Below are positions 7,027-26,117 of a stretch of DNA of 64,000 nucleotides, in pieces. The stretch covers positions 682,001-746,000 of the forward strand of contig NZ_CP129137.1 of the NCBI RefSeq assembly GCF_030406905.1. Reading direction: 5' to 3'. The notes beneath the pieces are model-generated. The model was not told the DNA's origin and did no database searches. It saw only the letters and a list, made by a program, of their open reading frames with translations. Position 1 is the first letter of the stretch. The number at the start of each line of letters is the position of its first letter. The position numbers and the translations under genes were made by a program. This DNA comes from Streptomyces sp. HUAS CB01. Lineage in GTDB: Bacteria > Actinomycetota > Actinomycetes > Streptomycetales > Streptomycetaceae.

Positions 7027-8016
7027 ATGCCACACCCCCAGCTGACGGTCGTCGTCCCGTGTTTCGACGAGAGCGAGGTGATCGACGCCTTCCACGCGGC
7101 GCTGGTCGCCGCTCTGCAGCCGACCGGGGAGCGCTTCGAGATCTGCTACGTGGACGACGGCAGCGACGACGGGACCGCCGAGCGGCTGCGGGCGCTCGCG
7201 GCGGCGTCCGCGTACGTGCGCTACACGTCCTTCAGCCGCAACTTCGGCAAGGAGGCCGCCCTCCTCGCCGGGATGCGGATGGCCCGGGGCGAGGCCGTGG
7301 TGCTGATGGACGCCGATCTGCAGCATCCCCCCGAGCTGGTCCCCCGCATGCTGGAGCTGTACCGGCACGGCTACGACCAGGTCGTCGCCCGGCGCGACCG
7401 CTCGGGCGAGGGCGCACTGCGGTCGGCGCTGAGCCGGGCGTACTACCGGCTGGTGCGGCACTTCATGGACGTGGAGATCGCGGACGGGGAGGGCGACTTC
7501 CGGCTGCTCTCGCGCCGCGCCGTCGAGGCCGTGCTGTCGCTTCCGGAAAGCAACCGTTTCTCCAAGGGGCTCTTCTCCTGGATCGGCTTCCCGACGGCCG
7601 GTTTCACCTATCGCAACGTCGAACGGGCCGCGGGCCGCTCCAAGTGGGGCGGCAGACGGCTGCTCGACTACGGGATCGACGGGCTGCTGTCCTTCAACAC
7701 CCGCCCGTTGCGCCTGGCGATCCACACCGGCCTCTGGCTCTTCCTGTCCGCCCTGGGTTACGCCGTGTGGATCGTCGTGAACGCGGTGGTCGACGGCGTC
7801 GAGACACCGGGGTACGCGACCCTCATCACCGCCATCGTGGGCCTCAGCGGCGTCCAGCTCGCGACGCTCGGCGTCATCGGTGAGTACGTCGGCCGGATCT
7901 ACCACGAGGCGAAACGACGGCCGCACTACGTCGTGGCCGAGACGGACGCCCCCGCGCACCCTCACCCGGAAGGCGTCCCCACGGCGGTCGCCTCCCGCTC
8001 CCGGCCCCGCCGGTGA
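7027..8016 (+). CDS. GtrB-like GT2 polyprenyl-phosphate glycosyltransferase
   Basis: A 329-residue family 2 glycosyltransferase. The N-terminal '[14 protein letters not shown]' and 'VDDGSDDGT' bind the nucleotide sugar; 'DADLQHPPE' (D95, D97) is the metal-binding motif of the dolichol-phosphate mannosyltransferase/GtrB branch; '[15 protein letters not shown]' is also typical. Two C-terminal membrane helices lie at about residues 235-260 and 268-292. The family moves one sugar from a nucleotide donor to undecaprenyl phosphate on the inner face of the membrane. The next gene is a GtrA-type small membrane protein overlapping by GTGA, the classic gtrA/gtrB pairing. The lipid-linked sugar is then flipped and used outside by a GT-C enzyme; the opposing gene at 8398-9900 is the candidate. 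Confidence 0.88.
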
Positions 8017-8423
8017 ACACCGCCGGCCTGCGGCAGTTCGCCGTCTTCGCCGTGATCGGAGTGGTCAACACCGGGGTGTACTACGGCGTGTACGCCCTGC
8101 TGCTGCTGTGGCTGCCGTACCTGGCCGCGCACGCCCTGGCGTACGGGGTGGGCGTCACGGGCTCGTTCCTGCTCAACTCGTACATCACCCTCCGCACCCG
8201 CCCGACGTGGCGCGGCTTCGTGCGCTACCCGCTGTCGGGAGCGGCCGGTCTCGTGGGCAGTGGTGTGCTGCTCCATCTGGCCGTGAGCCGGCTGGGCATG
8301 GGCGAGCACCTCGCCGCGATCGCCGCCGGGGTGCTCGTCACCCCGTTGTCGTTCCTGGTCGCGCGGTGGGCGATCACGTCCGGTGCCCGGCGTACGGTCA
8401 CGGAAGCCGCGTCGAGCGAGTGA
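8013..8423 (+). CDS. GtrA-like four-helix membrane protein
   Basis: 136 residues with four membrane helices and the GtrA start '[19 protein letters not shown]'; '[18 protein letters not shown]' is the conserved central segment (Asn and Tyr/Phe-Arg pattern). GtrA proteins are proposed to flip polyprenyl-linked monosaccharides made by GtrB. The GTG start overlaps the previous stop by 4 bp. The last 26 bp overlap the 3' end of the convergent membrane-protein gene. Confidence 0.88.
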
Positions 8424-10223: not shown

Positions 10224-11138
10224 TCAGGGCCGCTCGGGGGGCTCCGGCTTGCGTCCCACGTGCTCGCCCGGCGTCGCCAGCTCCTCGACCGCGTCCGCGG
10301 CCACCACCGCTCCGGTGGACTTCCTGCCGCGCCGCAGCCGGCCCTCCAGCCGGGCCGCGAACGAGGTGAGCGCGAAGTTCAGCACTATGAAGATCACGGC
10401 GACGACGGTGAAGCTGGCGATGGTGTTCGCGCCGTAGTTGGCGCTCATCGGCCGCACCGACGCCAGGAGCTCGGAGAAGCCGAGCATCGCACCGCCCAGG
10501 GCGGTGTCCTTGACGATGACCACCATCTGGCTGACGATCGCCGGGAGCATCGCCGTCACCGACTGCGGCAGCAGCACGTACCGCATCGTCTGGCCCTTGC
10601 GCATGCCGATCGCCCGGGCGGCGTCCGACTGCCCCTGCGGCAGTGCCAGGATCCCGGCCCGGACGACCTCGGCCAGCACGGACGAGTTGTAGAGCACCAG
10701 GCCGGTCACCACGGCGTACAGCGGCCGGTTGTCGGGGCTGATGTCGGAGAACACGGCGTAGGCCGCGTTGGCGAACAGCATCAGGATCAGCACGGGGATG
10801 GCGCGGAAGAACTCCACCACCGTGCCCGCGGCGCCGCGTACCCAGCCGTGCTCCGACAGCCGGGCGATGCCGAGGACCGCACCGAGCGGCAGCGCGATGA
10901 CCAGCGAGAGGGCCGCGGCGATGAGGGTGTTCTCGAGCCCCGGCAGGAGGTAGGTCGTCCACACCCGGGAGTCGGTGAAGAACGGAGCCCACTTGGACCA
11001 GTCCAGCTGGCCCTTGGCGGCGAGGCCCGTGAGGACCCACCAGGCCAGGGCCGCGAGGACGACCAGGAAGCCCAGCGAGTACACGAGGTTGCGCCGCCTG
11101 GCCCGGGGTCCGGGCACGTCGTACAGGACCGCGCTCAT
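10224..11138 (-). CDS. gluD: Glutamate-type amino-acid ABC permease GluD
   Basis: A 304-residue HisM/GluD-class permease. A long cytoplasmic N-terminus precedes helices starting near residue 19; the conserved core 'VEFFRAIPVLILMLF' and the EAA-like loop 'QSDAARAIGMRKGQTMRYV' are present, followed by a charged C-terminal tail of about 40 residues. Its ATG overlaps the gluC stop (ATGA on the minus strand, 11135-11138), so the two permeases are coupled. It is the last gene of a four-gene operon read leftward: gluA (13555), gluB, gluC, gluD. The order and protein types match gluABCD of Corynebacterium and Streptomyces; substrate glutamate/glutamine is inferred from that match. Confidence 0.85.
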   Translation of the reverse strand: MSAVLYDVPGPRARRRNLVYSLGFLVVLAALAWWVLTGLAAKGQLDWSKWAPFFTDSRVWTTYLLPGLENTLIAAALSLVIALPLGAVLGIARLSEHGWVRGAAGTVVEFFRAIPVLILMLFANAAYAVFSDISPDNRPLYAVVTGLVLYNSSVLAEVVRAGILALPQGQSDAARAIGMRKGQTMRYVLLPQSVTAMLPAIVSQMVVIVKDTALGGAMLGFSELLASVRPMSANYGANTIASFTVVAVIFIVLNFALTSFAARLEGRLRRGRKSTGAVVAADAVEELATPGEHVGRKPEPPERP

Positions 11139-11800
11139 CGCTTCACCGCCACCTTCTTGCTCACCCAGCCGAGGAAGAGGCCGGTGGGGAGGGTGAGGAC
11201 GATGAAGCCGGCGGCGAAGACGGCCGAGATGAGGATGAGCTGCGCCTCGTTCTCGATCATCTCCCGCATCAGCAGTGCGGCCTCGGGGACGCCGATGGCG
11301 GCGGCCACCGTGGTGTTCTTCGTCAGTGCGATCAGCACGTTCGCGAGCGGGCCCACCACCGAGCGGAAGGCCTGGGGAAGGACGACGAGCGTGAGCACCT
11401 GGACGAAGCCCAGCCCCAGGGCGCGGGCCGCCTCCACCTGGCCCACGGGCACGGTGTTGATGCCGGACCGCAGTGCCTCGCAGACGAACGCGGACGTGTA
11501 GGCGGTCAGCCCGAGCACGGCGAGCCGGAAGTTGATCACGTCGAAGGTGTCGGCGCCGAGGCTCACGCCGAGGGTCTGGAACAGTCCGAGCGAGGTGAAG
11601 ACGATGATCACCGTGAGCGGGATGTTCCGGACCACGTTGACGTACCCGGTGCCGAATCCGCGCATCACGGGCACCGGGCTCACGCGCATGGCGGCCAGCA
11701 CGGTGCCCCAGACCAGCGACCCGATCGCGGACCAGACCGTGAGCTGGATGGTCGTCCAGAACGCCCCCAGCACGTCGTAACCCTGAAGGAAGTCGAACAC
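11135..11800 (-). CDS. gluC: Glutamate-type amino-acid ABC permease GluC
   Basis: 221 residues, about five helices, the short partner of GluD. Family signatures are 'GYVNVVRNIPLTVIIVF' and the coupling loop 'VGQVEAARALGLGFVQV'; 'ALTKNTTVAAAIGVPE' is typical near the end of the domain. It is inserted in the membrane with GluD to form the channel. It starts 75 bp after the gluB stop; that spacer is GC-rich and contains short dyads (CCGGTCACCGG), which could damp readthrough from the binding-protein gene, as often seen in such operons, but I cannot show this. Confidence 0.85.
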   Translation of the reverse strand: MFDFLQGYDVLGAFWTTIQLTVWSAIGSLVWGTVLAAMRVSPVPVMRGFGTGYVNVVRNIPLTVIIVFTSLGLFQTLGVSLGADTFDVINFRLAVLGLTAYTSAFVCEALRSGINTVPVGQVEAARALGLGFVQVLTLVVLPQAFRSVVGPLANVLIALTKNTTVAAAIGVPEAALLMREMIENEAQLILISAVFAAGFIVLTLPTGLFLGWVSKKVAVKR

Positions 11801-14848: not shown

Positions 14849-17014
14849 ATGAAGCGGATCCGCGTCCGGCGGACCATACGGACGACCGCGCTCGGTGCAG
14901 GAGCGCTCATCATCTCGCTGGGCGGCCTGCCGGCGTCACCGGTGCAGGCGGCGGCCGCCGAACCGGCCCCGAGGATCGACCTGCGGGTGCTGGTGGTCTC
15001 CGACGGGGGCCCGGCGACGGCCGCGATCGCCGCGGAACTCGACAGCGCGGGCACCCCGTACACCGTGGTCGACCTCGCGGAGACGGGCCGCCCCGTCATC
15101 GACGCGGCCTTCCTCGCGGACGAGGTCGACGGCCGGCCGCGGGCCAGGTTCCAGGCCGTCGTGCTGCCCAACGACCAACCGTTCCCCGCCGGTTCGCAGG
15201 AGATGGCGGCCCTGGCGGCGTACGAGCGGGCCTACGCGATCCCGCAGGTGGACGCGTACACCTACGCCCAGCCGCAGGCCGGGCTGGAGTACCCGGTCAA
15301 CGGCGGGTACGCCGGGCCCGTGGACGGGATCACCGCACAGGTGACGCCCGCCGGGAAGGCCGGTCCGTTCGGCTATCTCGACGGCGCCTTCGACTTCGAG
15401 GACAACGACCCCTCGGTCGACGAGAGCTGGGGCTTCCTCTCCCGGCCGCGGGCCGGCGCCGACTTCACCACCTACGTCGACGCTCCCGTCCCCGGGGGAA
15501 CCTCCCGCGGCTCGCTCGTCGGGGAGTACCGGCACGACGGCCGCCGCGAACTGGTGGTCACCTTCGTGGCCAACCGGCACCAGCAGCAGTTCAGGCTGCT
15601 CGCCCGGGGGATCGTCGACTGGATGACCCAGGGCACGCGCCTGGGCACCTCGCGCAACTGGTTCTCGGTCCACGTCGACGACGTCTTCGCCGCCGACGAC
15701 CGCTGGGACACCGAGCTCGACTGCACACCGGGGGACGTCGACTGCCCGCCGGGGCAGGGCACACCGGACCCGATCCGGATGACGCCTGACGACGTCGGAC
15801 GGGCGGTCGAGTGGTCGCGGTCCCGCAACTTCACGCTCGACCTCGCCTTCAACGGCGGCGGCAGCGTCGAGCACCGCGAGGAGCACGGCGGGACCGACCC
15901 CCTGGCGGACCGGCTGACCCGGGACCGCGGCGCGTTCCGCTGGATCAACCACACGTACGACCACCCGTACCTGGGCTGCGAACAGGACGTGAGCGTCGTC
16001 CCCTGGAAGTGCTCCACCGACCCGGACGGCAGCGTCCGCTACATCGGCCGGGACGAGATATCCCGGCAGATCGCCGACAACCGCCGATGGGCGGAGCGGG
16101 CCGGGCTTCCGCTGGAGAACGGCGAGTTGGTCACCGGGGAGCACTCCGGGCTCGCACTCCTGCCGCAGCAGCCCGAGGACAATCCGCACCTCGCCCCGGC
16201 CCTCGCGGACAACGGCGTCACCTGGCTCGCCTCGGACAACTCCCGTGACCCGGTGCAGCGGCGGATCGGTCCCGCGCTCACCGTCTCCCGCCACCCGATG
16301 AACGTGTTCTACAACGTGGGCCGGGCCGCGGAGCAGGTCGACGAGTACAACTGGATCTACACCAGCAGGGCCCAGGGCGGCAGCGGCATCTGCGAGGACT
16401 CGGCCACGACCACCTGTCTCGACGCGCCGCTCGACCCCGCCACGGGCTACACGGACCACATCGTGCCGCTGGAGGCACGGATCGCCATGGGCCACGTCCT
16501 GGCCAACGACCCGCGCCCGCACTTCATCCACCAGTCGAACCTGGCCGAGGACCGCATCGCCTACCCGGTCCTGGACCGCGTCCTCGACCAGTACGCGGCG
16601 CTCCACGCGGACAACACCCCGCTGGTGAGCCCCAGGATGCAGGACGTCGGCGCGGAACTGCGCGAACGGGCCGCCTGGGACCGAGCGGTGAAGTCCGGTC
16701 AGGCCACCGCGTACCGGATCGGCGACACCGTCACCGTCACGGCCCCGGCCGGCACGGCCGTCCGCGCCACCATGCCGCCGGGGACCACCCGGGTGCTCCC
16801 CGACGGGCCGGCCGCCTTCGGCGAGCCGTACGCGGGCACCGTCTCCGGCAGCCTGCCGCCCGGCCCCGGCCAGGACGGCGTGACCCTCTCGCTGCCGTCG
16901 GCCCCCGCGGCGGGAAGCCCGGCCGCCGGTCCCGCACGGACCACGGTCCCGGCTCCCGACGGCCCCGTGCCCCCGGGTGTCGCACGCCCCGTGGTCCCCG
17001 GTGCCGAGCGCTGA
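14849..17014 (+). CDS. Secreted PelA-like polysaccharide deacetylase
   Basis: 721 residues with a Sec/Tat-like signal ('RRTIRTTALGAGALIISLGG', cleavage near 'VQAAA', residue 34). A Rossmann-like domain follows (about 40-260: 'RIDLRVLVVSDGGPATAAIA', 'FQAVVLPNDQPFPAGSQEM'), then a NodB-type deacetylase domain. 'FSVHVDDVF' gives the paired Asp (D277, D278) and 'INHTYDHPY' the zinc-binding His pair (H368, H372). This domain order is that of the middle and C-terminal parts of PelA, which de-N-acetylates Pel polysaccharide, but the N-terminal glycosidase module of PelA is absent. The tail after about residue 600 is Pro/Ala-rich. It is the first gene of a cluster continuing to 24303; the missing hydrolase role could be filled by the two glycosidases at its end. 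Confidence 0.7.
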   Translation: MKRIRVRRTIRTTALGAGALIISLGGLPASPVQAAAAEPAPRIDLRVLVVSDGGPATAAIAAELDSAGTPYTVVDLAETGRPVIDAAFLADEVDGRPRARFQAVVLPNDQPFPAGSQEMAALAAYERAYAIPQVDAYTYAQPQAGLEYPVNGGYAGPVDGITAQVTPAGKAGPFGYLDGAFDFEDNDPSVDESWGFLSRPRAGADFTTYVDAPVPGGTSRGSLVGEYRHDGRRELVVTFVANRHQQQFRLLARGIVDWMTQGTRLGTSRNWFSVHVDDVFAADDRWDTELDCTPGDVDCPPGQGTPDPIRMTPDDVGRAVEWSRSRNFTLDLAFNGGGSVEHREEHGGTDPLADRLTRDRGAFRWINHTYDHPYLGCEQDVSVVPWKCSTDPDGSVRYIGRDEISRQIADNRRWAERAGLPLENGELVTGEHSGLALLPQQPEDNPHLAPALADNGVTWLASDNSRDPVQRRIGPALTVSRHPMNVFYNVGRAAEQVDEYNWIYTSRAQGGSGICEDSATTTCLDAPLDPATGYTDHIVPLEARIAMGHVLANDPRPHFIHQSNLAEDRIAYPVLDRVLDQYAALHADNTPLVSPRMQDVGAELRERAAWDRAVKSGQATAYRIGDTVTVTAPAGTAVRATMPPGTTRVLPDGPAAFGEPYAGTVSGSLPPGPGQDGVTLSLPSAPAAGSPAAGPARTTVPAPDGPVPPGVARPVVPGAER

Positions 17015-17153
17015 CCCGACCCCACCGGCCGCACCAGCTCACCGCGAGGAAGCGGGTTCCGGACACCGCACGCCGTGCACGACGGCGCGCGCCGTTCCCG
17101 CCGGGGACGCCCCGGAACCCGCCAGCCCCGCCCTCCTGCCGTGGAGCCCATCC

Positions 17154-18665
17154 ATGCACGTATCGCCTCGTGCGCCGCGTCGAGACGCGGCACGCGTCAC
17201 CCTGCTCACCGAAGGCACCTACCCGCACAGTCACGGCGGGGTGAGTGTCTGGTGCGACCAGCTCGTCGGCGGCATGCCCGACATCGACTTCGACATCATC
17301 GCGGTGACCGGCACCGGACGGGAGTCCGTGGTGTGGGAACTGCCCCCGCACGTGGCCGAGCCGGTCACCGTGCCCATGTGGGGCCCCGCACCCCCGGGTT
17401 CCCCGCCGCGCGGGCGGCGTGAACGCCGGCTGATGGCCGCGTACGAACGGTTCCTCACGGCACTGGTGGACCCGGCCGCCGAGGACGGGTTCGCCCCGGC
17501 CCTGTACGAACTGGCGCACGCCGCCCGGGACGGGGTGCTCGGGCCGGCCCTGCGCGGGGACAAGGCCCTGCGCGTCCTGACCGCCGTGTGGAACCGCCCC
17601 GGTCTGACCGTGCGGGAGGCGCGGCCCAGCCTCCACGACGCCGTCACCGCGACGGCGCTCCTGGAGCACGCCCTGCGGCCGCTCGCGGCCCGGCCGCCGG
17701 AGCGCGGAGTCGCGCACGCGGTGAGCGGCGGGGTGGCGGTGCTGCCGGGGCTCGCCGCCCTCGAACTCCACGGGGTGCCCCTGCTGCTGACCGAGCACGG
17801 GGTCTACCTGCGCGAACGCTATCTCGGTTACCGGACGGCCCCGTACCGCTGGCCGGTCAAGGCGGTGCTGCTGGGCTTCTTCCGGCTGCTGGCCGAGGAG
17901 ACCTACCGCCGCGCGGCCCTCGTCACACCGGGCAACCGCTACAACCGGCTGTGGGAGGAGCAGGGCGGCGCCGATCCCCGGCTCATCCGCACCGTCTACA
18001 ACGGCGTGGACCCGTCCGCGTTCCCCCCGGCCGGCCCCGAACCGGAGGGACCCACGCTGAGCTGGGCGGGGCGCGTCGACCCCATCAAGGACCTGGAGAC
18101 CCTGATCCGGGCGTTCGCGGAGGTCCGCGGAGCCCTCCCCGACGCGACCCTGCGGCTGTTCGGCGGCACCCCGCGCGGCGGGGAGGCGTACCGGGAGCGG
18201 TGCGAGGCGCTCGCGGCGTCGCTCGGCCACGGCGACGCCGTCACCTTCGAGGGCCGGGTCGACGACATCAGGGACGCGTACGCCGCGGGCAACGTCGTGA
18301 TGCTGTCCAGCATCAGCGAGGGGTTCCCCTTCACCCTGATCGAGGCCATGTCGTGCGGCAGGGCCACCGTGTCCACCGACGTCGGCGGCGTCCGGGAGGC
18401 GGTCGGCGACGCCGGGCTGGTCGTCCCGCCCCGTGACCCCGGGGCCATGGCCGCGGCGGCGCTGCGGCTGCTGGCCGATCCGCCGCGCCGGGCGGCGATG
18501 GGCGAGGCTGCGCGGCTGCGGGTGATCGAGCAGTTCACGCTCCGTCAGACCATCGACACCTTCCGGGCCATCTACCTGGAGCTGTCCGTCAGCGGGGTAC
18601 GGCTCGCCGATCCCTGGGGCACGCCCCTCAGCGACGAGGCGCCCCTGGGGAGCGTGGCCGGATGA
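17154..18665 (+). CDS. PelF-like GT4 glycosyltransferase
   Basis: 503 residues, the usual PelF length (about 505). The N-terminal half opens with 'VTLLTEGTYPHSHGGVSVW', which in this family marks the DUF3492 domain of PelF, and includes 'HAVSGGVAVLPGLAALELHG' and 'LLLTEHGVYLRERY'. The C-terminal GT-B donor domain has 'SWAGRVDPIKDLETLIRAF' and the E-x7-E motif 'EGFPFTLIE' (E389, E397), then 'GGVREAVGDAGLVVPPRDP'. PelF uses UDP-GalNAc/UDP-GlcNAc-type donors to polymerise Pel in the cytoplasm. GGAG seven bases upstream supports the ATG at 17154. It overlaps the next gene by ATGA, so the two proteins probably act together at the membrane. Confidence 0.82.
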   Translation: MHVSPRAPRRDAARVTLLTEGTYPHSHGGVSVWCDQLVGGMPDIDFDIIAVTGTGRESVVWELPPHVAEPVTVPMWGPAPPGSPPRGRRERRLMAAYERFLTALVDPAAEDGFAPALYELAHAARDGVLGPALRGDKALRVLTAVWNRPGLTVREARPSLHDAVTATALLEHALRPLAARPPERGVAHAVSGGVAVLPGLAALELHGVPLLLTEHGVYLRERYLGYRTAPYRWPVKAVLLGFFRLLAEETYRRAALVTPGNRYNRLWEEQGGADPRLIRTVYNGVDPSAFPPAGPEPEGPTLSWAGRVDPIKDLETLIRAFAEVRGALPDATLRLFGGTPRGGEAYRERCEALAASLGHGDAVTFEGRVDDIRDAYAAGNVVMLSSISEGFPFTLIEAMSCGRATVSTDVGGVREAVGDAGLVVPPRDPGAMAAAALRLLADPPRRAAMGEAARLRVIEQFTLRQTIDTFRAIYLELSVSGVRLADPWGTPLSDEAPLGSVAG

Positions 18666-20047
18666 GCGGGCCGATGGCTCTCGAACCCGACGGCGGACAG
18701 GGCGACACGCTGGCGTTGCGGCTCGCCGCCGCCGATGCCACGCTCTCGCTGCGCCTGCCCCGGCGCAGACGGGTGCCGGACGACCCGGTCGACCTCCTGG
18801 CCGCCGAGCTCGCCGACCGGATCGGGCCCGCGGTGCACGCGTACGAGGTGGCGGCCCTGCTGGAGTCCGAGGGCCTGACGGGCGAGCAGATCCAGGAACG
18901 CTACGGGCGCCCCGATCTGTTCTCGCTCGCCGCCGATCTGTACGGGCGGGTGCCGCGCAGCTTCCCCGAGCCCCCGCACGGGCCGGATCCCTGGGCACCC
19001 GACCATGTCCGGTGCGCTCTGCGCGGGGCGTTGTTCGCCCTGCCGGGGCTGGCGTACGTGCTCACCGGCGGGCTGTGGCACACGCCCCGGGGGGTGTACG
19101 CCCTGGTCGCCGCCGGCCTGCTGTCGTGGGCGTGGGGCCAGGCGCTCAGCCATCGCGCGTATCTGCGGCTGGCGGCCGGGGCGCGCGAGGCGGGCCGGAC
19201 GCTGCTCGTGGGCGCTCCCGCGGGAGCGCTGTTCGCCACGGCGGCCGCGCTCGTCGTCGCGGGGCCGGGGCCCGCGGCTCTGTTCGGCGCCGGGCAGTCG
19301 CTGTACCTCGCGTCGGCGGGGGTGCTCCTGGTGCGCGGCAGGGAACGACTGCTGCTCGTCACGCTCGTGCCGTTGGCCGCCGGTGCGGCGGCGCTGCCGT
19401 GGTGGGACCCGGGTCCACTGCCCCGGATCGTGCTGGCGGCGTCGACGGTGGCGCTTGCGGTCGCCGTCGCGGGCCGGGAGATCGGGGGGATGCTCCGTGC
19501 GGCGCCGGCACCCGGCGGCACCCGGCCGCCGGTGCGGGCCTCGCTGCCGTACGGGCTGTTCGGGCTGGCCGCGGGCGCGCTGGTGATGTCGGTGGGGCAG
19601 CGTCAGCCCTGGGCCGTGGTCGTGCTGACCGTCAGCATGGGGCCCGCCGAATGGCTGCTCTACCGCTACCGGGGGCTGTCGGTTGCGGCCCTGCGGGCGT
19701 CGGCGGACGAGGCCGGGTTCCGGCTGCGGTCCGCCCGGACGCTGGCGCTGTGTCTGGGGGGCTATCTGCTGCCGCTGTTCCCCGCGGCCCTGCTCACGGG
19801 CGCCGAACCGGCGCCCCTGCTCGCCCTCGCCGCGCTGCTGTGGACCGCGCTGCTGCTCCAGGCGTTCGGCCTCGCCTGGCTCCCGGCCGGGGTCACGCTC
19901 ACCGCGGCGGCCGGGGTGGCCGCCGCCGCGACGCTGCCCGGTGGTCCACCGGGCACCGCTCCGCTGCTGATCTGCTGCGGCGTCGCCGCAGGGGTGCTCG
20001 TCACCGCCATCCTGTGGTGTCTGGGCCGGCCCACCGCGCACTCCTGA
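18662..20047 (+). CDS. Polytopic membrane protein, candidate PelG-like export partner
   Basis: 461 residues. The first 110 are soluble and mostly helical ('YEVAALLESEGLTGEQIQER', 'DLFSLAADLYGRVPRSFPEP'), followed by about 10-12 hydrophobic helices to the C-terminus with few loops. Size and topology match PelG (about 450 residues, 12 helices), and the ATGA overlap with the pelF-like gene mirrors pelF-pelG order, but I see no firm sequence signature of PelG and the soluble N-terminal part is unlike it. The best inference is the membrane conduit or scaffold for the polymer made by the gene before it. A hairpin follows 30 bp after the stop. Confidence 0.55.
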   Translation: MSGPMALEPDGGQGDTLALRLAAADATLSLRLPRRRRVPDDPVDLLAAELADRIGPAVHAYEVAALLESEGLTGEQIQERYGRPDLFSLAADLYGRVPRSFPEPPHGPDPWAPDHVRCALRGALFALPGLAYVLTGGLWHTPRGVYALVAAGLLSWAWGQALSHRAYLRLAAGAREAGRTLLVGAPAGALFATAAALVVAGPGPAALFGAGQSLYLASAGVLLVRGRERLLLVTLVPLAAGAAALPWWDPGPLPRIVLAASTVALAVAVAGREIGGMLRAAPAPGGTRPPVRASLPYGLFGLAAGALVMSVGQRQPWAVVVLTVSMGPAEWLLYRYRGLSVAALRASADEAGFRLRSARTLALCLGGYLLPLFPAALLTGAEPAPLLALAALLWTALLLQAFGLAWLPAGVTLTAAAGVAAAATLPGGPPGTAPLLICCGVAAGVLVTAILWCLGRPTAHS

Positions 20048-20076
20048 CCCGCCGTCCGCACCCGTCGCGGCAACCG

Positions 20077-20093
20077 CCCCGCGGCACGCGGGG
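20077..20093 (+). terminator. Short hairpin inside the exopolysaccharide cluster
   Basis: CCCCGCG (20077-20083), loop GCA, CGCGGGG (20087-20093): a perfect 7-bp stem in the 128-bp gap between the membrane-protein gene and the dehydratase gene. It may attenuate transcription or split the cluster into two units. Confidence 0.4.
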
Positions 20094-20175
20094 TTCCGGC
20101 CCGTCGTCCGGACCGCCCGTCCACCGTTCGCACACCACCGCTCCCCGCGGTGAACCGTCCCGAAAGGAACGACAG

Positions 20176-21177
20176 TTGACATCCGCACCGCTCGCCGCCG
20201 TCACCGGAGCCGAGGGCTTCATCGGCTCCCATCTGACCGAGGCCCTCGTCGCGTCGGGACACCGGGTCCGCGCGATGGTCCAGTACAACTCCTTCTCCTC
20301 GTACGGCTGGCTGGAGACCCTGCCGAAGGACGTCCTCGACCGGGTCGAGATCGTGCTCGGCGACGTCCGCGACCCCGGTTCCGTACGCGGACTCGCCGAA
20401 GGAGCCGACGCCGTCTACCACTTGGCGGCACTGATCGCGATCCCCTACTCCTACCGCGCCCCGCACAGCTACGTGGACACCAACGTCACGGGCACGCTCA
20501 ACGTGCTGGAGGCGGTGCGGGCCCTCGGGACCCCGCGGCTGGTCCACACCTCCACCAGCGAGACGTACGGTTCCGCACGGACCGTGCCGATCACCGAGGA
20601 CCATCCCGTCAACACCCAGTCGCCGTACGCGGCCTCCAAGGCCGGCGGGGACCGGCTGGCCGACAGCTACCACGCGAGCTTCGGCACGCCCGTGGTCACC
20701 CTGCGGCCCTTCAACACCTTCGGCCCCCGGCAGTCGATGCGGGCGGTCATCCCGACCGTCATCGGGCAGGTCGCCGCCGGGGAGCGCACGATCACCCTGG
20801 GCGACCTCCGGCCCACGCGCGACTTCACGTACGTCACGGACACGGCCGCGGCGTTCCTGGCCGTCGGCACGGCACCGGCCGAGGCCGTCGTGGGGCGGAC
20901 CCTCAACGCCGGTACCGGCGGCGAGATCTCCGTCGGGGACCTGGTGCGGCTCATCGGCAAGGTGATGGACACCGACCTCGACGTCCGGGAGGACGAGCAG
21001 CGCATCCGGCCCGCGAAATCCGAGGTGATGCGGCTGGTCGCGGACGCGACCCGGCTGCGGGAGGCGACCGGCTGGGCTCCGGCCCTCGACCTGGAGCAGG
21101 GACTGGCACGGACGGTGGAGTTCTTCAGGGACCCCGCCAATCTCGCCCGCTACAAGACCGACATCTACAACATCTGA
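20176..21177 (+). CDS. LegB-like NAD-dependent sugar-nucleotide dehydratase/epimerase
   Basis: 333 residues, extended short-chain dehydrogenase. NAD motif 'TGAEGFIGSH' (G11, G14, G17); catalytic Ser/Thr in 'HTSTSETYGSA' and Y151-x3-K155 in 'SPYAASKAGG'. The segment 'VRAMVQYNSFSSYGWLE' and 'ALIAIPYSYRAPHSYVDTN' recall LegB, a UDP-GlcNAc 4,6-dehydratase, more than GalE; a hexose 4-epimerase remains possible. The start is TTG at 20176: AAAGGAA lies seven bases before it and no ATG/GTG is suitably placed. It should supply a modified amino-sugar nucleotide for the glycosyltransferase upstream. Confidence 0.8.
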   Translation: MTSAPLAAVTGAEGFIGSHLTEALVASGHRVRAMVQYNSFSSYGWLETLPKDVLDRVEIVLGDVRDPGSVRGLAEGADAVYHLAALIAIPYSYRAPHSYVDTNVTGTLNVLEAVRALGTPRLVHTSTSETYGSARTVPITEDHPVNTQSPYAASKAGGDRLADSYHASFGTPVVTLRPFNTFGPRQSMRAVIPTVIGQVAAGERTITLGDLRPTRDFTYVTDTAAAFLAVGTAPAEAVVGRTLNAGTGGEISVGDLVRLIGKVMDTDLDVREDEQRIRPAKSEVMRLVADATRLREATGWAPALDLEQGLARTVEFFRDPANLARYKTDIYNI

Positions 21178-21217
21178 CCCGGCGGACCACCCACCGCCGT
21201 ACTCACAGGGGGCTACC

Positions 21218-21931
21218 GTGCACGCAGTGATTCTCGCCGGAGGCAAGGGCATCCGGCTGCGCCCGTACACCACCGCGCTGCCCAAGCCGCTCGTCCCGAT
21301 CGGCGACCGGCACGCGATCCTGGAGATCGTGCTGCGTCAGCTGGCGGCCTGCGGCTTCACGAGCTGCACCATCGCCGTCGGCCATCTCGGCCACATCATC
21401 CGCGCCTATGTCGGCAGCGGTTCACGATGGGGCCTGAGCATCGACTACGCGACCGAGGAGAACCCGCTGGGCACCATGGGCCCGCTGCTGACGATGCGGG
21501 ACCGGCTGCCCGAGTCGTTCCTGGTCATGAACGGGGACATCCTCACCGACCTCGACTTCGCCGACGTACTGGGCCGGCACCGCGCGAGCGGGTCGGCGCT
21601 GACGATCGCCACCTACGCCCGTAAGGTGCACATCGACTTCGGGGTGCTGACCACGGACGCCGGGAAGGTGGTCGGCTTCGCCGAGAAGCCGTCCATGGAC
21701 TACCGCGTCTCGATGGGCGTGTACGGGCTGTCCCGCGACACGCTCGACGGATACACCGCCGGGCTGCCGCTCGGCTTCGACGAACTCGTGCTCGATCTGC
21801 TGAGGACCGGGAAACCGCCGCATGCCTACGAGTTCGACGGCTACTGGCTCGACATCGGCCGGCCGGACGACTACGACCGGGCCAACGCCGAGTTCACCAC
21901 CCACCAGTCACTGCTGCTCAAGGGAGCCTGA
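21218..21931 (+). CDS. Sugar-1-phosphate nucleotidyltransferase
   Basis: 237 residues, the short RmlA/GlmU-like nucleotidyltransferase fold. 'AVILAGGKGIRLRPYT' is the NTP-binding loop, 'LPKPLVPIGDR' carries the conserved Lys, and 'VMNGDILTDLDF' is the metal-binding Asp motif. 'GFAEKPSMDYRVSMGVY' and 'GYWLDIGRPDDYDRAN' are the usual later motifs. It has no C-terminal beta-helix, so it is a plain pyrophosphorylase making an NDP-sugar. The GTG start has AGGGGG upstream (21207-21212). Only 7 bp separate it from the next gene. In Leg-type pathways a similar enzyme activates the amino sugar; which nucleotide is used here is unknown. Confidence 0.85.
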   Translation: MHAVILAGGKGIRLRPYTTALPKPLVPIGDRHAILEIVLRQLAACGFTSCTIAVGHLGHIIRAYVGSGSRWGLSIDYATEENPLGTMGPLLTMRDRLPESFLVMNGDILTDLDFADVLGRHRASGSALTIATYARKVHIDFGVLTTDAGKVVGFAEKPSMDYRVSMGVYGLSRDTLDGYTAGLPLGFDELVLDLLRTGKPPHAYEFDGYWLDIGRPDDYDRANAEFTTHQSLLLKGA

Positions 21932-21938
21932 ACACCCC

Positions 21939-22853
21939 ATGCGCATCCTCGTCCTGGGCCACACCGGGTACCTGGGCCGCCATGTCGCCGAACAGCTCAG
22001 CGCGCTGGGGGGCGTGCGGCTGTTCGGCGGCGGCCGGTCCCCGGACGCCGACCTCCGCGTGGACCTCGCCACGGCGGACACGGGGCGGCTGGCCGAGAAC
22101 CTCGCGGACCTCTCCCCCGACGCCGTGGTCAACTGCGCGGGGTCGCTCGGCGCCGATCCGGTGACCGATGCCGAGGTCAACGTGCGCGGTCCCGCCGTGC
22201 TCTGCGCGGCACTGCGCAAGGCCGCGCCGACGGCCCGGCTGGTGCACCTCGGTTCGGCGGCCGAGTACGGGGCGGGCGAGCCCGGTGTGCCGGTCGCGGA
22301 GGACGGACCGACGCGGCCGGTGGCCTCGTACGGCGCCACCAAACTGGCCGGCACGGTGGCCGTCGCCTCGTCGGGCCTGGACGCGGTCGTGCTGCGCGTG
22401 GGCAACCCGGTCGGTCCGGGCGCCGCGCCGATGAGCCTGCCGGGCGGCACCGCCCTGCGGCTGCGCCGGGCGGGCGGGGACCGTGACGCGGTCGTGCGCT
22501 TCGGCGACCTGTCCGCCCATCGCGACTTCGTCGACGTACGGGACCTGGCACGGGCCGTCGTGCTGGCCGCTACCGCCTCCGGGCCGCTGCCGCGCATCCT
22601 CAACATCGGCGGCGGCAGGGCCGTTCCCATCCGGGAGCTGGTGCAGGGGCTGGTGGCCGTGGCCGGGTTCCGCGGCCGTGTCGACGAGGCCGGCATCGGG
22701 TCGGCGCGCTCCGCGGGCGTGGCCTGGCAGTGCTCGGACATCACGGCGGCGCGGGAGGCCCTCGGCTGGGAGCCGCGGTTCACCCTCACGGGCTCCCTCA
22801 CCGCGCTGTGGGCGTCGCTCGGCGCCCCCGGGGAAGCGGACCCGGTGGCATGA
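21939..22853 (+). CDS. NAD-dependent epimerase/reductase (SDR)
   Basis: 304 residues. NAD motif 'GHTGYLGRH' (G7, G10, G13), 'LVHLGSAAEYGAG' for the active-site Ser, and Y131-x3-K135 in 'SYGATKLAG'. 'HRDFVDVRDLARAVVLA' and 'ILNIGGGRAVPIRELVQG' are typical of nucleotide-sugar epimerases and 4-ketoreductases. Together with the dehydratase at 20176 it could complete a 4-keto-6-deoxy amino-sugar route, the dehydratase making the keto intermediate and this enzyme reducing or epimerising it. It overlaps the next gene by ATGA. Confidence 0.8.
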   Translation: MRILVLGHTGYLGRHVAEQLSALGGVRLFGGGRSPDADLRVDLATADTGRLAENLADLSPDAVVNCAGSLGADPVTDAEVNVRGPAVLCAALRKAAPTARLVHLGSAAEYGAGEPGVPVAEDGPTRPVASYGATKLAGTVAVASSGLDAVVLRVGNPVGPGAAPMSLPGGTALRLRRAGGDRDAVVRFGDLSAHRDFVDVRDLARAVVLAATASGPLPRILNIGGGRAVPIRELVQGLVAVAGFRGRVDEAGIGSARSAGVAWQCSDITAAREALGWEPRFTLTGSLTALWASLGAPGEADPVA

Positions 22854-23512
22854 CACTGCTGGTCCCCCTCTACGTGCACCCCGTGGAGGACCCGGAGGCC
22901 TGGCGGTTGGTCACGGCCGCCGGGGACCTGGTCTACGGGGTGGTGCTGAACCCGGCCGACGGCCCGGGTGCGGCGCCCGATCCCGCGTTCGTCTCCGCCG
23001 CCCGCGACCTGCGGTCGGCGGGCACGCGCGTCCTCGGCTACGTCGACCTGGACTACGGGATGCGGCCGGACTCGGCGGTGACGGCCGATCTGGACCGCCA
23101 TCGTGCGTGGTACGACGCCGACGGCTGCTTCTTCGACCAGGTGCCGGCCGACCGCTCGGCCCTGCCCGGCTGCCGCCGGCTCGTCCGCGCCGCGCGGCAG
23201 CGGGGCGCCGGTACGGTCGTCCTCAACCACGGGGTGCACCCGGCGCCGGGGTACGCGCGGATCGCCGAACTGCTGGTGACGTTCGAGGGCCCCTGGCCGG
23301 TCTACCTCTCCTCGTTCACCCGGCCTCGGTGGACGGCCCGCCATCCGGCCGAGCGGTTCTGCCATCTGGTCTACGAGGTGCCGACGGCGCTGGCGGGCGT
23401 CGCGGCCCGGGCGGCCGGGGAGCGCGGAGCCGCGGTGTCGTGCGCGGTCACGGACTCCCTGCCCAATCCCTGGGGCGCGCCGCCGCCCGCGCTGTACGGG
23501 GGGACCCGGTGA
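22850..23512 (+). CDS. Spherulin-4 family (GH135-like) protein
   Basis: 220 residues matching the spherulation-specific family 4 pattern: 'LLVPLYVHPVEDPEAW' at the very start, 'VYGVVLNPADGPG', 'RVLGYVDLDYG', 'DADGCFFDQVP' with acidic catalytic-type residues, and 'VLNHGVHPAPGYA'. The eukaryotic member Sph3 (GH135) cleaves alpha-1,4-galactosaminogalactan. No signal peptide is seen, so unless exported otherwise it would act inside the cell, which is odd for a polymer hydrolase. It is coupled by ATGA and GTGA overlaps to the genes on both sides, so it is clearly part of the cluster. Confidence 0.72.
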   Translation: MTLLVPLYVHPVEDPEAWRLVTAAGDLVYGVVLNPADGPGAAPDPAFVSAARDLRSAGTRVLGYVDLDYGMRPDSAVTADLDRHRAWYDADGCFFDQVPADRSALPGCRRLVRAARQRGAGTVVLNHGVHPAPGYARIAELLVTFEGPWPVYLSSFTRPRWTARHPAERFCHLVYEVPTALAGVAARAAGERGAAVSCAVTDSLPNPWGAPPPALYGGTR

Positions 23513-24303
23513 GCCGCCGGCGCGTCCCGCGGCTGTGTCTGCTGTTCGCCGTGCTGCTGGTGGCGGGCTGCTCCGGCGGTTCCCCGCCGGGTCCGGACGG
23601 GGCGCGCTGGCAGCCTCGGCCCGGCACGGCGTGGCAGTGGCAGCTCGACGGCCGGGCCGACCCCTCGGCGGCGGACGTGCCCGTGTACGACATCGACGGC
23701 TTCGAGAACAGCGCGGACGACGTCGCGCGGCTGCACCGGGACGGGCGCAGGGTCATCTGCTACATCAACGCCGGCGCCTGGGAGCGTTTCCGTCCCGACC
23801 AGGCGGACTTCCCGGCGTCCGTACGCGGCCGGCCGAACGGCTGGGACGGTGAGCGGTGGCTCGACATCCGCCGGCTGGACGTGCTGCGCCCCCTCATGGA
23901 GCGGCGCTTCGACATGTGCCGGGAGAAGGGCTTCGACGCGGTCGAACCGGATCTGCTGGACGCGTATCTCAACGACACCGGCTTCCCTCTGACCGCCGCC
24001 GACCAGCTCGCCTACAACCGCATGATCGCCCGTGTCGCCCACGACCGCGGCCTGTCCGTCGGGCTGAAGAACGATCTGCCGCAGGTTGCTGCCCTGGTGG
24101 GGGACTTCGACTTCGCGGTCAACGAGGAGTGCGCCCAGTACGGCGAGTGCGGGAAGCTCGCCCCGTTCATCGCGGCCGGGAAGGCCGTCTTCCATGTGGA
24201 GTACGCACTGGCCAACGGCGACTTCTGCGGCGAGTCGCGGCGCCTGGGACTGTCCTCCATGCGCAAGCGGCTGGAGCTCGACGCGTGGCGCCGGCCGTGC
24301 TGA
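23509..24303 (+). CDS. GH114-like endo-alpha-1,4-polygalactosaminidase lipoprotein
   Basis: 264 residues. The N-terminus 'MSRRRVPRLCLLFAVLLVAG' ends in lipobox VAGC (Cys21), so the enzyme is tethered outside the membrane. The body is a clear GH114/TM1410-type barrel: 'WQWQLDG', 'VPVYDIDGFENSADDV', 'VICYINAGAWERFRPD', 'DAVEPDLLDAYLND' with the likely catalytic acids, and 'GLSVGLKNDLPQVAAL'. Characterised GH114 enzymes hydrolyse alpha-1,4-linked galactosamine polymers. The GTG start overlaps the previous stop by GTGA. It is the last gene of the cluster, with a hairpin after it. Its presence is the best clue to the chemistry of the polymer. Confidence 0.82.
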   Translation: MSRRRVPRLCLLFAVLLVAGCSGGSPPGPDGARWQPRPGTAWQWQLDGRADPSAADVPVYDIDGFENSADDVARLHRDGRRVICYINAGAWERFRPDQADFPASVRGRPNGWDGERWLDIRRLDVLRPLMERRFDMCREKGFDAVEPDLLDAYLNDTGFPLTAADQLAYNRMIARVAHDRGLSVGLKNDLPQVAALVGDFDFAVNEECAQYGECGKLAPFIAAGKAVFHVEYALANGDFCGESRRLGLSSMRKRLELDAWRRPC

Positions 24304-24395: not shown

Positions 24396-26117
24396 TCAGA
24401 CCGAGGGGCGCAGGAAGCGCTTCAGCTTCGCCAGGGGCCAGGTGTTGATGACGTCGTCCTTGGTGAGCCAGCCGCGCTGCGCGGTCGCCACCCCGTAGCG
24501 CATGTACGGCAGATGTGTGGTGGAGTGCGCGTCCGAGTCGACGGCGAAGCGCACGCCGTGGCGCCTGGCGCGCAGGATGTCCTCGTCGCCGAGGTCGAGG
24601 CGCTCGGGATGGGCGTTGATCTCGAGGGCCGTGCCGGTGCGGGCGCATGCGGCGAAGACGGCGTCGAAGTCGGCGTCGATCGGAGGCCGTTTGCCGATCT
24701 TGCGGGTGGTGGGGTGCCCGATGACGGAGACGTAGGGGTTCTCGCAGGCGCGGACGAGGCGGCGGGTGAGTGCCTCCCGGCTCTGGTGGAAGTGGGAGTG
24801 GATCGAGGCCACGCAGATGTCGAAGCCCGCGAGGAAGTCGTCCGGCCAGTCCACGTCGCCGTCCGGGCCGATGTTGAGCTCGGTGCCGTGCAGCAGTCTC
24901 ATGCCCTTGTGGCTGCGGTCGAGTTCGCGGACCCGTTCCCGCTGGGCGAGCATCTTCTCCTTCGTCATGCGCTGCATGGCGAGGTCCGGGGCGTGGTCGG
25001 TCACCGCGTAGTAGGCGTATCCGCGCGCCGCCGCCGCGGCGACCATCTCCTCGAGCGGGGCCAGGCCGTCGGTGAGATCGGTGTGGGTGTGGAGATCACC
25101 GCGGATGTCGTCCTCGGCGACCGGCTCGGGGAGTTCGCCGCGGAGGGCGGCCGCGATCTCGCCCCGGTCCTCGCGCAGGGTCGGGGGGATCCAGGGCAGC
25201 CCGAGGCGTTCGTAGATCTCCTCCTCGGTGGAGGAGACGATCCGCTCGCCGCTCTCGACGTCGAAGAGGCCGTACTCGGACAGCTTGAGCCCCTGGCGCA
25301 CCGCGATCTCGCGGGTGCGGATGTTGTGGGCCTTGGCGCCGGTGAAGTACTGCAGTCCCGCGCCCCAGGACTCGGGCGGCAGCACGCGCAGATCGACCTG
25401 GAGCCCCTTGGTCGTGCGGACGGAGGTCTTCTTGGCACCGTGGGCCATGACCTCGGCGGTGTACGGGAGTGCCGCGAGCGCGTCCATGAAGGGGGCCGAG
25501 GTGTCCGCGGCGACGAGGATGTCGATGTCGCCGATGGTCTCCCGCATCCGTCGCAGCGATCCGGCCCAGGTGCACTTCTCGCAGCCCTCGATGCCCGACA
25601 GTTCGGCCACGATCTGCTCGGCCGCGTCCATGGCGGCGTTGAGGAGGATCCGGGTGCCGGCCTTCTGCATGAGGGCGATGCCGTGGAGGATGTTCGCCTC
25701 GGTCTTCTCCCCGAAGCCCTTGAGGTCGCGCAGCCGCTCCCCGTGGATCGCGTCGAGGAGCTGGTCGACGGAGGAGATGCCCAGTTCCTCGTGGAGGACC
25801 AGTGCCTTCTTCGGCCCGAGCATGGGGATGGCGATGAGCTCCCGCACGCCGGCGGGGATGGACTGCCGCCGTTCCTCCACGGCGGTGATCTGCCCGGACG
25901 CCAGATACTCCACGATCTTGTCGGCGATGGACCTGCCGACGTGGGGGATCTCGCGCAGCCCCTTGGGGTCGAGGGTGGCCACGTCGGCGGGGTAGCCGCC
26001 GATCGCGCGGGCGGCCTTCTCGTACGAGCGGGCCCTGAAGGCGTCGCCGCCGGTGATGGCGATGAGGTCGGCGTACTCCTGGAGGATCGCCTCGATCTCT
26101 TCGTTCGCCCTGGCCAT
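24396..26117 (-). CDS. polX: DNA polymerase/3'-5' exonuclease PolX
   Basis: 573 residues, full length for bacterial PolX. Order: an 8-kDa-like HhH region ('RSYEKAARAIGGYPADV', 'IPHVGRSIADKIVEYL', 'GFGEKTEANIL'), then the nucleotidyltransferase palm with 'AGSLRRMRETIGDIDILV' (GS and DxD motifs), a thumb with 'GAKAHNIRTREIA', and a C-terminal PHP domain ('DLHTHTDLTDG' at about residue 340, 'YAVTDHAP', 'CVASIHSHF', 'EINAHPERLD', 'FAVDSDAHS') with all metal-binding His/Asp blocks. It fills gaps during base-excision repair and trims 3' ends. GGAG lies just before the ATG at 26117. A 26-bp tandem repeat begins 25 bp upstream of the start, exactly where the promoter should be. Confidence 0.93.
   Translation of the reverse strand: MARANEEIEAILQEYADLIAITGGDAFRARSYEKAARAIGGYPADVATLDPKGLREIPHVGRSIADKIVEYLASGQITAVEERRQSIPAGVRELIAIPMLGPKKALVLHEELGISSVDQLLDAIHGERLRDLKGFGEKTEANILHGIALMQKAGTRILLNAAMDAAEQIVAELSGIEGCEKCTWAGSLRRMRETIGDIDILVAADTSAPFMDALAALPYTAEVMAHGAKKTSVRTTKGLQVDLRVLPPESWGAGLQYFTGAKAHNIRTREIAVRQGLKLSEYGLFDVESGERIVSSTEEEIYERLGLPWIPPTLREDRGEIAAALRGELPEPVAEDDIRGDLHTHTDLTDGLAPLEEMVAAAAARGYAYYAVTDHAPDLAMQRMTKEKMLAQRERVRELDRSHKGMRLLHGTELNIGPDGDVDWPDDFLAGFDICVASIHSHFHQSREALTRRLVRACENPYVSVIGHPTTRKIGKRPPIDADFDAVFAACARTGTALEINAHPERLDLGDEDILRARRHGVRFAVDSDAHSTTHLPYMRYGVATAQRGWLTKDDVINTWPLAKLKRFLRPSV

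Follow-up and report, generated by a model that had tools for sequence, protein, structure and literature searches.

A Streptomyces operon joining a PelF-type polymerase and an Agd3-like deacetylase to a putative 6-deoxy-hexosamine module

Which polymer is made by an operon that unites a bacterial Pel-type polymerase with relatives of the enzymes acting on fungal galactosaminogalactan? The question is raised by eight genes in a 64,000-nucleotide stretch of Streptomyces sp. HUAS CB01 (positions 682,001 to 746,000 of NZ_CP129137.1, hereafter the window), denoted here by one letter each, in operon order, as A, F, M, D, N, R, S and G (Table 1). A first-pass annotation had described them as a Pel/galactosaminogalactan-like system making an alpha-1,4-linked galactosamine/N-acetylgalactosamine (GalN/GalNAc)-type polymer that might serve hyphal adhesion or pellet formation. 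The kinship with both systems stood, through PelF, an Agd3-like deacetylase and glycosidases of the GH135 and GH114 types; the polymer named is not secure, because the sugar-nucleotide enzymes point to a 6-deoxy sugar. On balance, we lean towards a synthase-dependent system for an amino-sugar exopolysaccharide that is partly deacetylated, a variant of the Pel/galactosaminogalactan systems with a 6-deoxy-hexosamine route.

The eight open reading frames (ORFs) all lie on the + strand, and their first start and last stop agree exactly with the limits first given, 14849 and 24303. Their third-position G+C is high and Streptomyces-like (0.92-0.94 in all eight). Overlaps of four bases join F to M, R to S and S to G, making joint translation of each pair probable, and the gaps elsewhere measure 139 (A-F), 128 (M-D), 40 (D-N) and 7 bases (N-R); a promoter scan found nothing. 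A scan for relatives of the deacetylase yielded 212, of which the best 80, all titled Streptomyces, were kept and underlie the locus counts given below. In this comparison across Streptomyces, which had been suggested as a check on the cluster, A-F-M-D-N-R was found in the same order and orientation in 71 of the 80 loci, so that the operon is not a chance assembly. One further locus (L072) shows A-F-M-D before its sequence ends, and the other eight end before the place expected for D. S was missing from three loci having G, while 14 loci had S and no G match in the available sequence, some of them through a contig end. The median identity to the window was 69% for A, 84% for F, 63% for M, 90% for D, 84% for N, 68% for R, 62% for S and 75% for G, and D (85-96% identity) was the best conserved of the first six in 65 of the 71 loci.

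The polymerase is the firmest link to Pel. F scored 163.9 bits with the PelF model NF038011 (cut-off 100) and 199 bits with DUF3492 (cut-off 23.3), confirming over a curated cut-off the earlier prediction of a PelF polymerase with a DUF3492 N-terminus; it did not group with ordinary glycosyltransferase family 4 (GT4) enzymes, the next GT4 model giving 108.5 bits against a cut-off of 400. For A, the PelA-like label proposed at first was dropped, since no PelA-type family in Pfam or NCBIfam matched, and an Agd3-like assignment took its place. A itself scored 12.7 bits with Pfam Agd3_CE, under the cut-off of 27.6, and the domain is present in the precomputed annotation of some homologues about 70% identical to it; single-sequence and profile searches of the PDB found no relative by sequence. 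The HVDD and HxxxH motifs and H561 were invariant in 24 aligned A rows and correspond, in a by-eye match to residues named in the accessible portion of PMC7229062, to D377/D378, H510/H514 and H668 of Agd3. The predicted catalytic base, metal triad and acid of Agd3/CE18 (CM1, CM2 and CM4) would be present in A; the arginine of CM3 was not placed, and the conserved M666 of Agd3 would be F559. CBM87 was absent from the families listed for the 24 rows. (The two alignments, A1 and A2, held 23 and 31 proteins, hand-picked for spread among 120 listed, plus the window protein.) The top Foldseek match of the predicted A model was Agd3 (6nwz), tied with NDST1 and obtained with a poor model (predicted local distance difference test, pLDDT, 56.9), so the Agd3-like fold of A is weakly indicated.

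M had been described as a PelG-sized membrane protein. It matched no family in Pfam or NCBIfam; PelG PF16933 was found at E<=1 in none of 32 and none of nine M homologues; hhalign against three PelG proteins gave a probability of 0.1 on a percent scale, with shallow profiles; and no PelG match was present in the whole genome, where two controls were detected. With the homologue, hhalign and genome searches all negative, a PelG label by sequence was dropped. The predicted model of M shows the MATE/Wzx/MurJ fold (multidrug/oligosaccharidyl-lipid/polysaccharide, MOP, superfamily), and M occupies the operon position held by a true PelG in two distant actinobacteria (G041 and G011). M would take PelG's place, and descent from PelG is not supported. 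In line with the first-pass annotation, none of the eight operon genes matched a PelB, PelC, PelD or PelE family; PelD gave no match in a genome-wide search either, where control queries gave none as well, and PelE was searched for in the eight operon genes only.

The two glycosidases fall in the families first proposed, as predicted hydrolases of GH135 and GH114 type. S scored 106.4 bits with Spherulin4 PF12138 (cut-off 30.2), its closest solved relative being Sph3 (5c5g, E 5.6e-12), and G scored 283.7 bits with GH114 PF03537 (cut-off 27), with Ega3 (6oj1, E 8.4e-54) closest. All 66 S rows contain FEG, and a pattern search located FxD in 59 of the 66; VNE occurs in 59 of 60 G rows. Mapped by eye on the alignments, G and S appear to keep the acid pair that PMC12054363 describes for Ega3 and Sph3. 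No signal peptide is seen in the S of the window, because it begins directly at the catalytic barrel and overlaps R; homologous rows were extracted close to match boundaries, so this applies to the window protein only.

It is the sugar-nucleotide module that sets the operon apart. D scored 453.7 bits with LegB TIGR04180, 171.1 with RmlB and 144.7 with GalE. Aligned with the dehydratase 1r66, it presents T-S-E against T-D-E, where 6wjb, annotated as an epimerase/dehydratase and which we take to be an epimerase, presents S-A-A; the triad positions are assigned from the alignment with 1r66. T-S-E and YxxxK were kept in 72 of 72 loci, indicating that the active site of a 4,6-dehydratase of the short-chain dehydrogenase/reductase (SDR) type is present. 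With the GalE score low, T-S-E kept and the 1r66/6wjb alignment as described, a GalE-type epimerase was disfavoured for D. The best PDB match of R was the guanosine diphosphate (GDP)-6-deoxy-D-lyxo-4-hexulose reductase 2pk3 (E 7e-22), GSAAEYG being present in 70 of 72 R rows, and N resembles GDP-mannose pyrophosphorylases (E 7e-29). The simplest reading is that D, N and R look like a self-contained 6-deoxy-sugar route and not a GalNAc epimerase route. The product of LegB is given in the consulted part of PMC6137143 as nucleoside diphosphate (NDP)-4-keto-6-deoxy-N-acetylglucosamine (GlcNAc). As GlcNAc is what LegB acts on and A requires N-acetyl groups, we favour an amino sugar, and the polymer probably contains a 6-deoxy-hexosamine.

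D was also found to go with one PelF subtype. In a sample of the phylum, A was present in 12 of 396 genomes (six of the 12 listed from the genus Streptomyces), and D at an identity of at least 82% in 15 of 61 Streptomyces genomes. F was queried in 24 of these 61, namely 12 of the 15 with D (G000, G411 and G432 were left out) and 12 of the 46 without. An F at least 72% identical occurred in all 12 genomes with D, starting 3-4 kb from the D start, and in none of the 12 without, where F was 64-66% identical in five, 51% in one, and without a match at E<=1e-100 in six. Four of the 12 D-less genomes carry a D paralogue of 52-55% identity. No sugar pathway was recognisable by eye beside the D paralogue of the window's own genome, which is therefore uninformative on the substrate of D; in G432, a 53% identical paralogue (L113, near 9623) lies close to a gene for a MurG-like glycosyltransferase (10615-11796, by eye). 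Some Streptomyces carry F relatives of a third kind, at 49-51% identity to F (G428:C20:354070-355551, G401:C6:685176-686675 and G398:C10:178962-180536).

The genome that contains the window holds a second cluster, A-F-M-G, on the - strand at about 2,044.7-2,050.9 kb (G000:C1; L100:6731-12861). Its F also exceeds the PelF cut-off (160.6 bits), and D, N, R and S gave no match within 18 kb around it. Related genomes have A-F-M-S or A-F-M-S-G clusters (L106-L108). In a tree of F, the own-genome paralogue and L106-L108 formed a starred group (98/97), while the D-bearing Streptomyces rows formed another (93/91, not starred), contig-end artefacts aside: the label "none" on L011, L041 and L078 inside the D group arises because their contigs end before D. 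The tree contained 36 of 88 rows, thinned by number, lost L103 to a length filter and carried a long-branch warning. We also considered whether S might reveal another substrate by differing between D-bearing and D-less clusters, and rejected this because no clear difference was seen: FxD is followed by Q in the three D-less Streptomyces clusters with S (L106-L108), and by R in 42 and by Q in 17 of the 66 S rows, which come almost entirely from D-bearing loci.

More distant genomes show other combinations. In place of D, G204 (L102:8235-18075) carries a nucleotide-sugar dehydrogenase and a different SDR behind A-F-M-N-R, as though one sugar module could be swapped for another. In G041 (L103:3493-12639), a GAF-GGDEF gene, a HEAT/TPR ORF and PelF are followed by a true PelG (PF16933, 475 bits), which lies between PelF and a deacetylase with Agd3_CE and CBM87, and a Spherulin4 gene stands on the opposite strand. 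G011 (L111) has the same PelF-PelG-deacetylase row by position, with matches to F, PelG, A and S. As read from its genes, this operon may be a bridge between the Pel and galactosaminogalactan systems.

The computation supports the gene set, the family assignments, the synteny, the tie of D to the F subtype and the fold of M, and more weakly that of A; for the substrates, the polymer and its linkage, the topology of S and the surface role, we infer the following scheme. Briefly, N would activate a hexose(NAc)-1-phosphate, probably as a GDP sugar, D would convert the activated sugar to its 4-keto-6-deoxy form, and R would reduce this to an NDP-6-deoxy-hexosamine, such as N-acetyl-quinovosamine or N-acetyl-fucosamine. 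F, PelF-type and cytosolic, would polymerise the 6-deoxy-hexosamine, alone or mixed with GalNAc, and M, with its MOP fold, would pass the chain across the membrane in PelG's role. The secreted A would then strip acetyl groups, giving a cationic, adhesive chain; G, an outer-face lipoprotein, may trim deacetylated stretches, and S, lacking a signal peptide, may trim or clear polymer inside the cell. More tentatively, and with less confidence than for the scheme as a whole, the genome may hold two paralogous Pel/galactosaminogalactan-type machines, the one in the window making a new, partly deacetylated poly-quinovosamine or poly-fucosamine from a GDP-linked sugar with a PelF-type polymerase and a MOP-fold exporter outside the Pfam and NCBIfam models.

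Several observations weigh against a 6-deoxy-hexosamine polymer made in this way. D falls just under the LegB cut-off of 475 bits, and the specificity of SDR enzymes is hard to read from sequence. As a match of R, 6wjb (E 2.3e-21) nearly equals 2pk3, and the best NCBIfam match of R is GalE (65.1 bits, cut-off 262.3); N lies far under every family cut-off. The best Foldseek match of M, at E 1.7e-3, falls short of 0.001, and for A there are the low pLDDT, the tie of NDST1 with Agd3 and the Pfam score under its cut-off. Ega3, to which G is similar, acts on galactosamine polymers, so that G implies no 6-deoxy substrate, and S is not clearly different between D-bearing and D-less clusters.

An alternative, in keeping with the first-pass annotation, is an ordinary alpha-1,4-GalN/GalNAc chain, with N, D and R supplying a minor second sugar, a side chain or a primer, or with D as a 4-epimerase supplying uridine diphosphate (UDP)-GalNAc. 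The resemblances of A, F, S and G are all to galactosamine-polymer enzymes, the same genome has an A-F-M-G cluster that does without D-N-R, and PMC7229062 cites, for Streptomyces, an endo-galactosaminidase activity as well as galactosamine polymer at low levels. We nevertheless consider this explanation rather unlikely, given the T-S-E at every locus, the LegB score far above that of GalE, the rank of D as best conserved gene in 65 of 71 loci and its tie to the PelF subtype in 24 of 24 genomes queried. It is improbable that the product is a wall glycan, spore-coat polymer or glycolipid unrelated to Pel and galactosaminogalactan, the resemblance being that of general amino-sugar enzymes: PelF does belong to the broad GT4 superfamily, M is not PelG by sequence and A is matched weakly, but PelF, an Agd3-like deacetylase, GH135 and GH114 stand together in one conserved operon, and another member of the phylum has a pelF-pelG operon that includes an Agd3-type deacetylase. 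Degradation or scavenging of foreign fungal galactosaminogalactan is very improbable indeed. Two hydrolases, a deacetylase and an adjoining ATP-binding cassette (ABC) transporter that includes a family 3 binding protein would suit it, but degradation has no use for a polymerase, an exporter-fold protein or nucleotide-sugar genes, and the transporter lies on the opposite strand.

The 6-deoxy-hexosamine variant that we favour can be set beside known systems. The fungal galactosaminogalactan cluster, like this operon, combines a polymerase with proteins of the Agd3, Sph3 and Ega3 kinds; in Aspergillus that cluster has a UDP-glucose 4-epimerase where this operon has a 4,6-dehydratase route, and polymerase and transporter are separate genes here, unlike in the fungal arrangement. 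The Neurospora cluster has the epimerase too, according to the accessible part of PMC11356417. The legionaminic acid pathway contains LegB, the family closest to D, but no aminotransferase or NeuB-type gene follows D here, and R is a reductase-like SDR. The Gram-positive Pel locus, given as pelDEADAFG in the excerpts of Whitfield et al. 2020 (PMC7112168), likewise has PelF and keeps deacetylase and hydrolase as separate genes, whereas this operon lacks a PelD or PelE match and has the MOP-fold M for PelG and an Agd3-like protein for the PelA-type deacetylase. Operons of this kind were already noted in 2020: the excerpted text of Bamford et al. 2020 (PMC7229062) describes actinobacterial operons, known there from their genes, with an Agd3 homologue, a cytoplasmic glycosyltransferase, a multi-spanning membrane protein, GH114 and, in some, spherulin-4, a gene set common with that of the window. 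That text does not name PelF, the fold of the membrane protein, a 4,6-dehydratase module or two paralogous clusters, any of which may appear in its figure or supplements; its discussion cites galactosamine in Streptomyces walls and the endo-galactosaminidase of S. griseus, an activity of 1975 without a sequence (also in the part consulted of PMC12054363). New here are the 6-deoxy-sugar-like enzyme set, the own-genome paralogue without it, the linkage of D to a PelF subtype, and the joining of PelF and PelG to an Agd3-type deacetylase in a distant actinobacterium. Among the matches listed from openly licensed papers, none was, by title or start of abstract, an experimental study of this operon in Streptomyces. 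Since poly-N-acetylglucosamine made by MatAB is required for hyphal aggregation in Streptomyces (PMC5972031, in excerpt), there would be a precedent for a second polymer with adhesive function.

If the proposal is right, Pel-type synthases are not limited to GalNAc and GlcNAc, and two paralogous clusters in one genome offer a natural experiment on what determines the polymer. The operon also provides candidate genes for the galactosamine-type material of Streptomyces and for the S. griseus endo-galactosaminidase activity, places a bacterial GH114 in its native operon and, through its putative surface role, may offer targets for hyphal aggregation, a fermentation problem.

Table 1. Genes of the operon, with positions in the window.
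Gene	Predicted product	Position	Strand	Basis and remarks
A	Agd3-like polysaccharide deacetylase, 721 aa	14849..17014	+	signal peptide by eye; HVDD 275-278, HxxxH 368-372, H561
F	PelF-type GT4 polymerase with DUF3492 N-terminus	17154..18665	+	family profiles; start codon chosen by us
M	multi-spanning membrane protein, 461 aa, proposed exporter	18662..20047	+	predicted MOP-superfamily fold with N-terminal helical domain
D	LegB-type NDP-hexose(NAc) 4,6-dehydratase (SDR), TTG start	20176..21177	+	TIGR04180; T-S-E and YxxxK
N	sugar-1-phosphate nucleotidyltransferase, GDP-mannose pyrophosphorylase-like	21218..21931	+	sequence matches
R	SDR, probable NDP-4-keto-6-deoxyhexose reductase	21939..22853	+	best PDB match 2pk3
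S	Spherulin4/GH135-type hydrolase	22850..23512	+	PF12138; Sph3 5c5g; FEG
G	GH114 endo-galactosaminidase-like protein	23509..24303	+	PF03537; Ega3 6oj1; lipobox by eye

The operon is flanked on both sides by genes of the opposite strand: on the left, three ABC-transporter genes (permease, family 3 binding protein and ATPase), and on the right, a PolX-like DNA polymerase/PHP gene (24396-26117, - strand). Neither looks like a part of the system. Elsewhere in the window, at 7027-8423 on the + strand, a glycosyltransferase family 2 gene is followed by one for a GtrA-like membrane protein.

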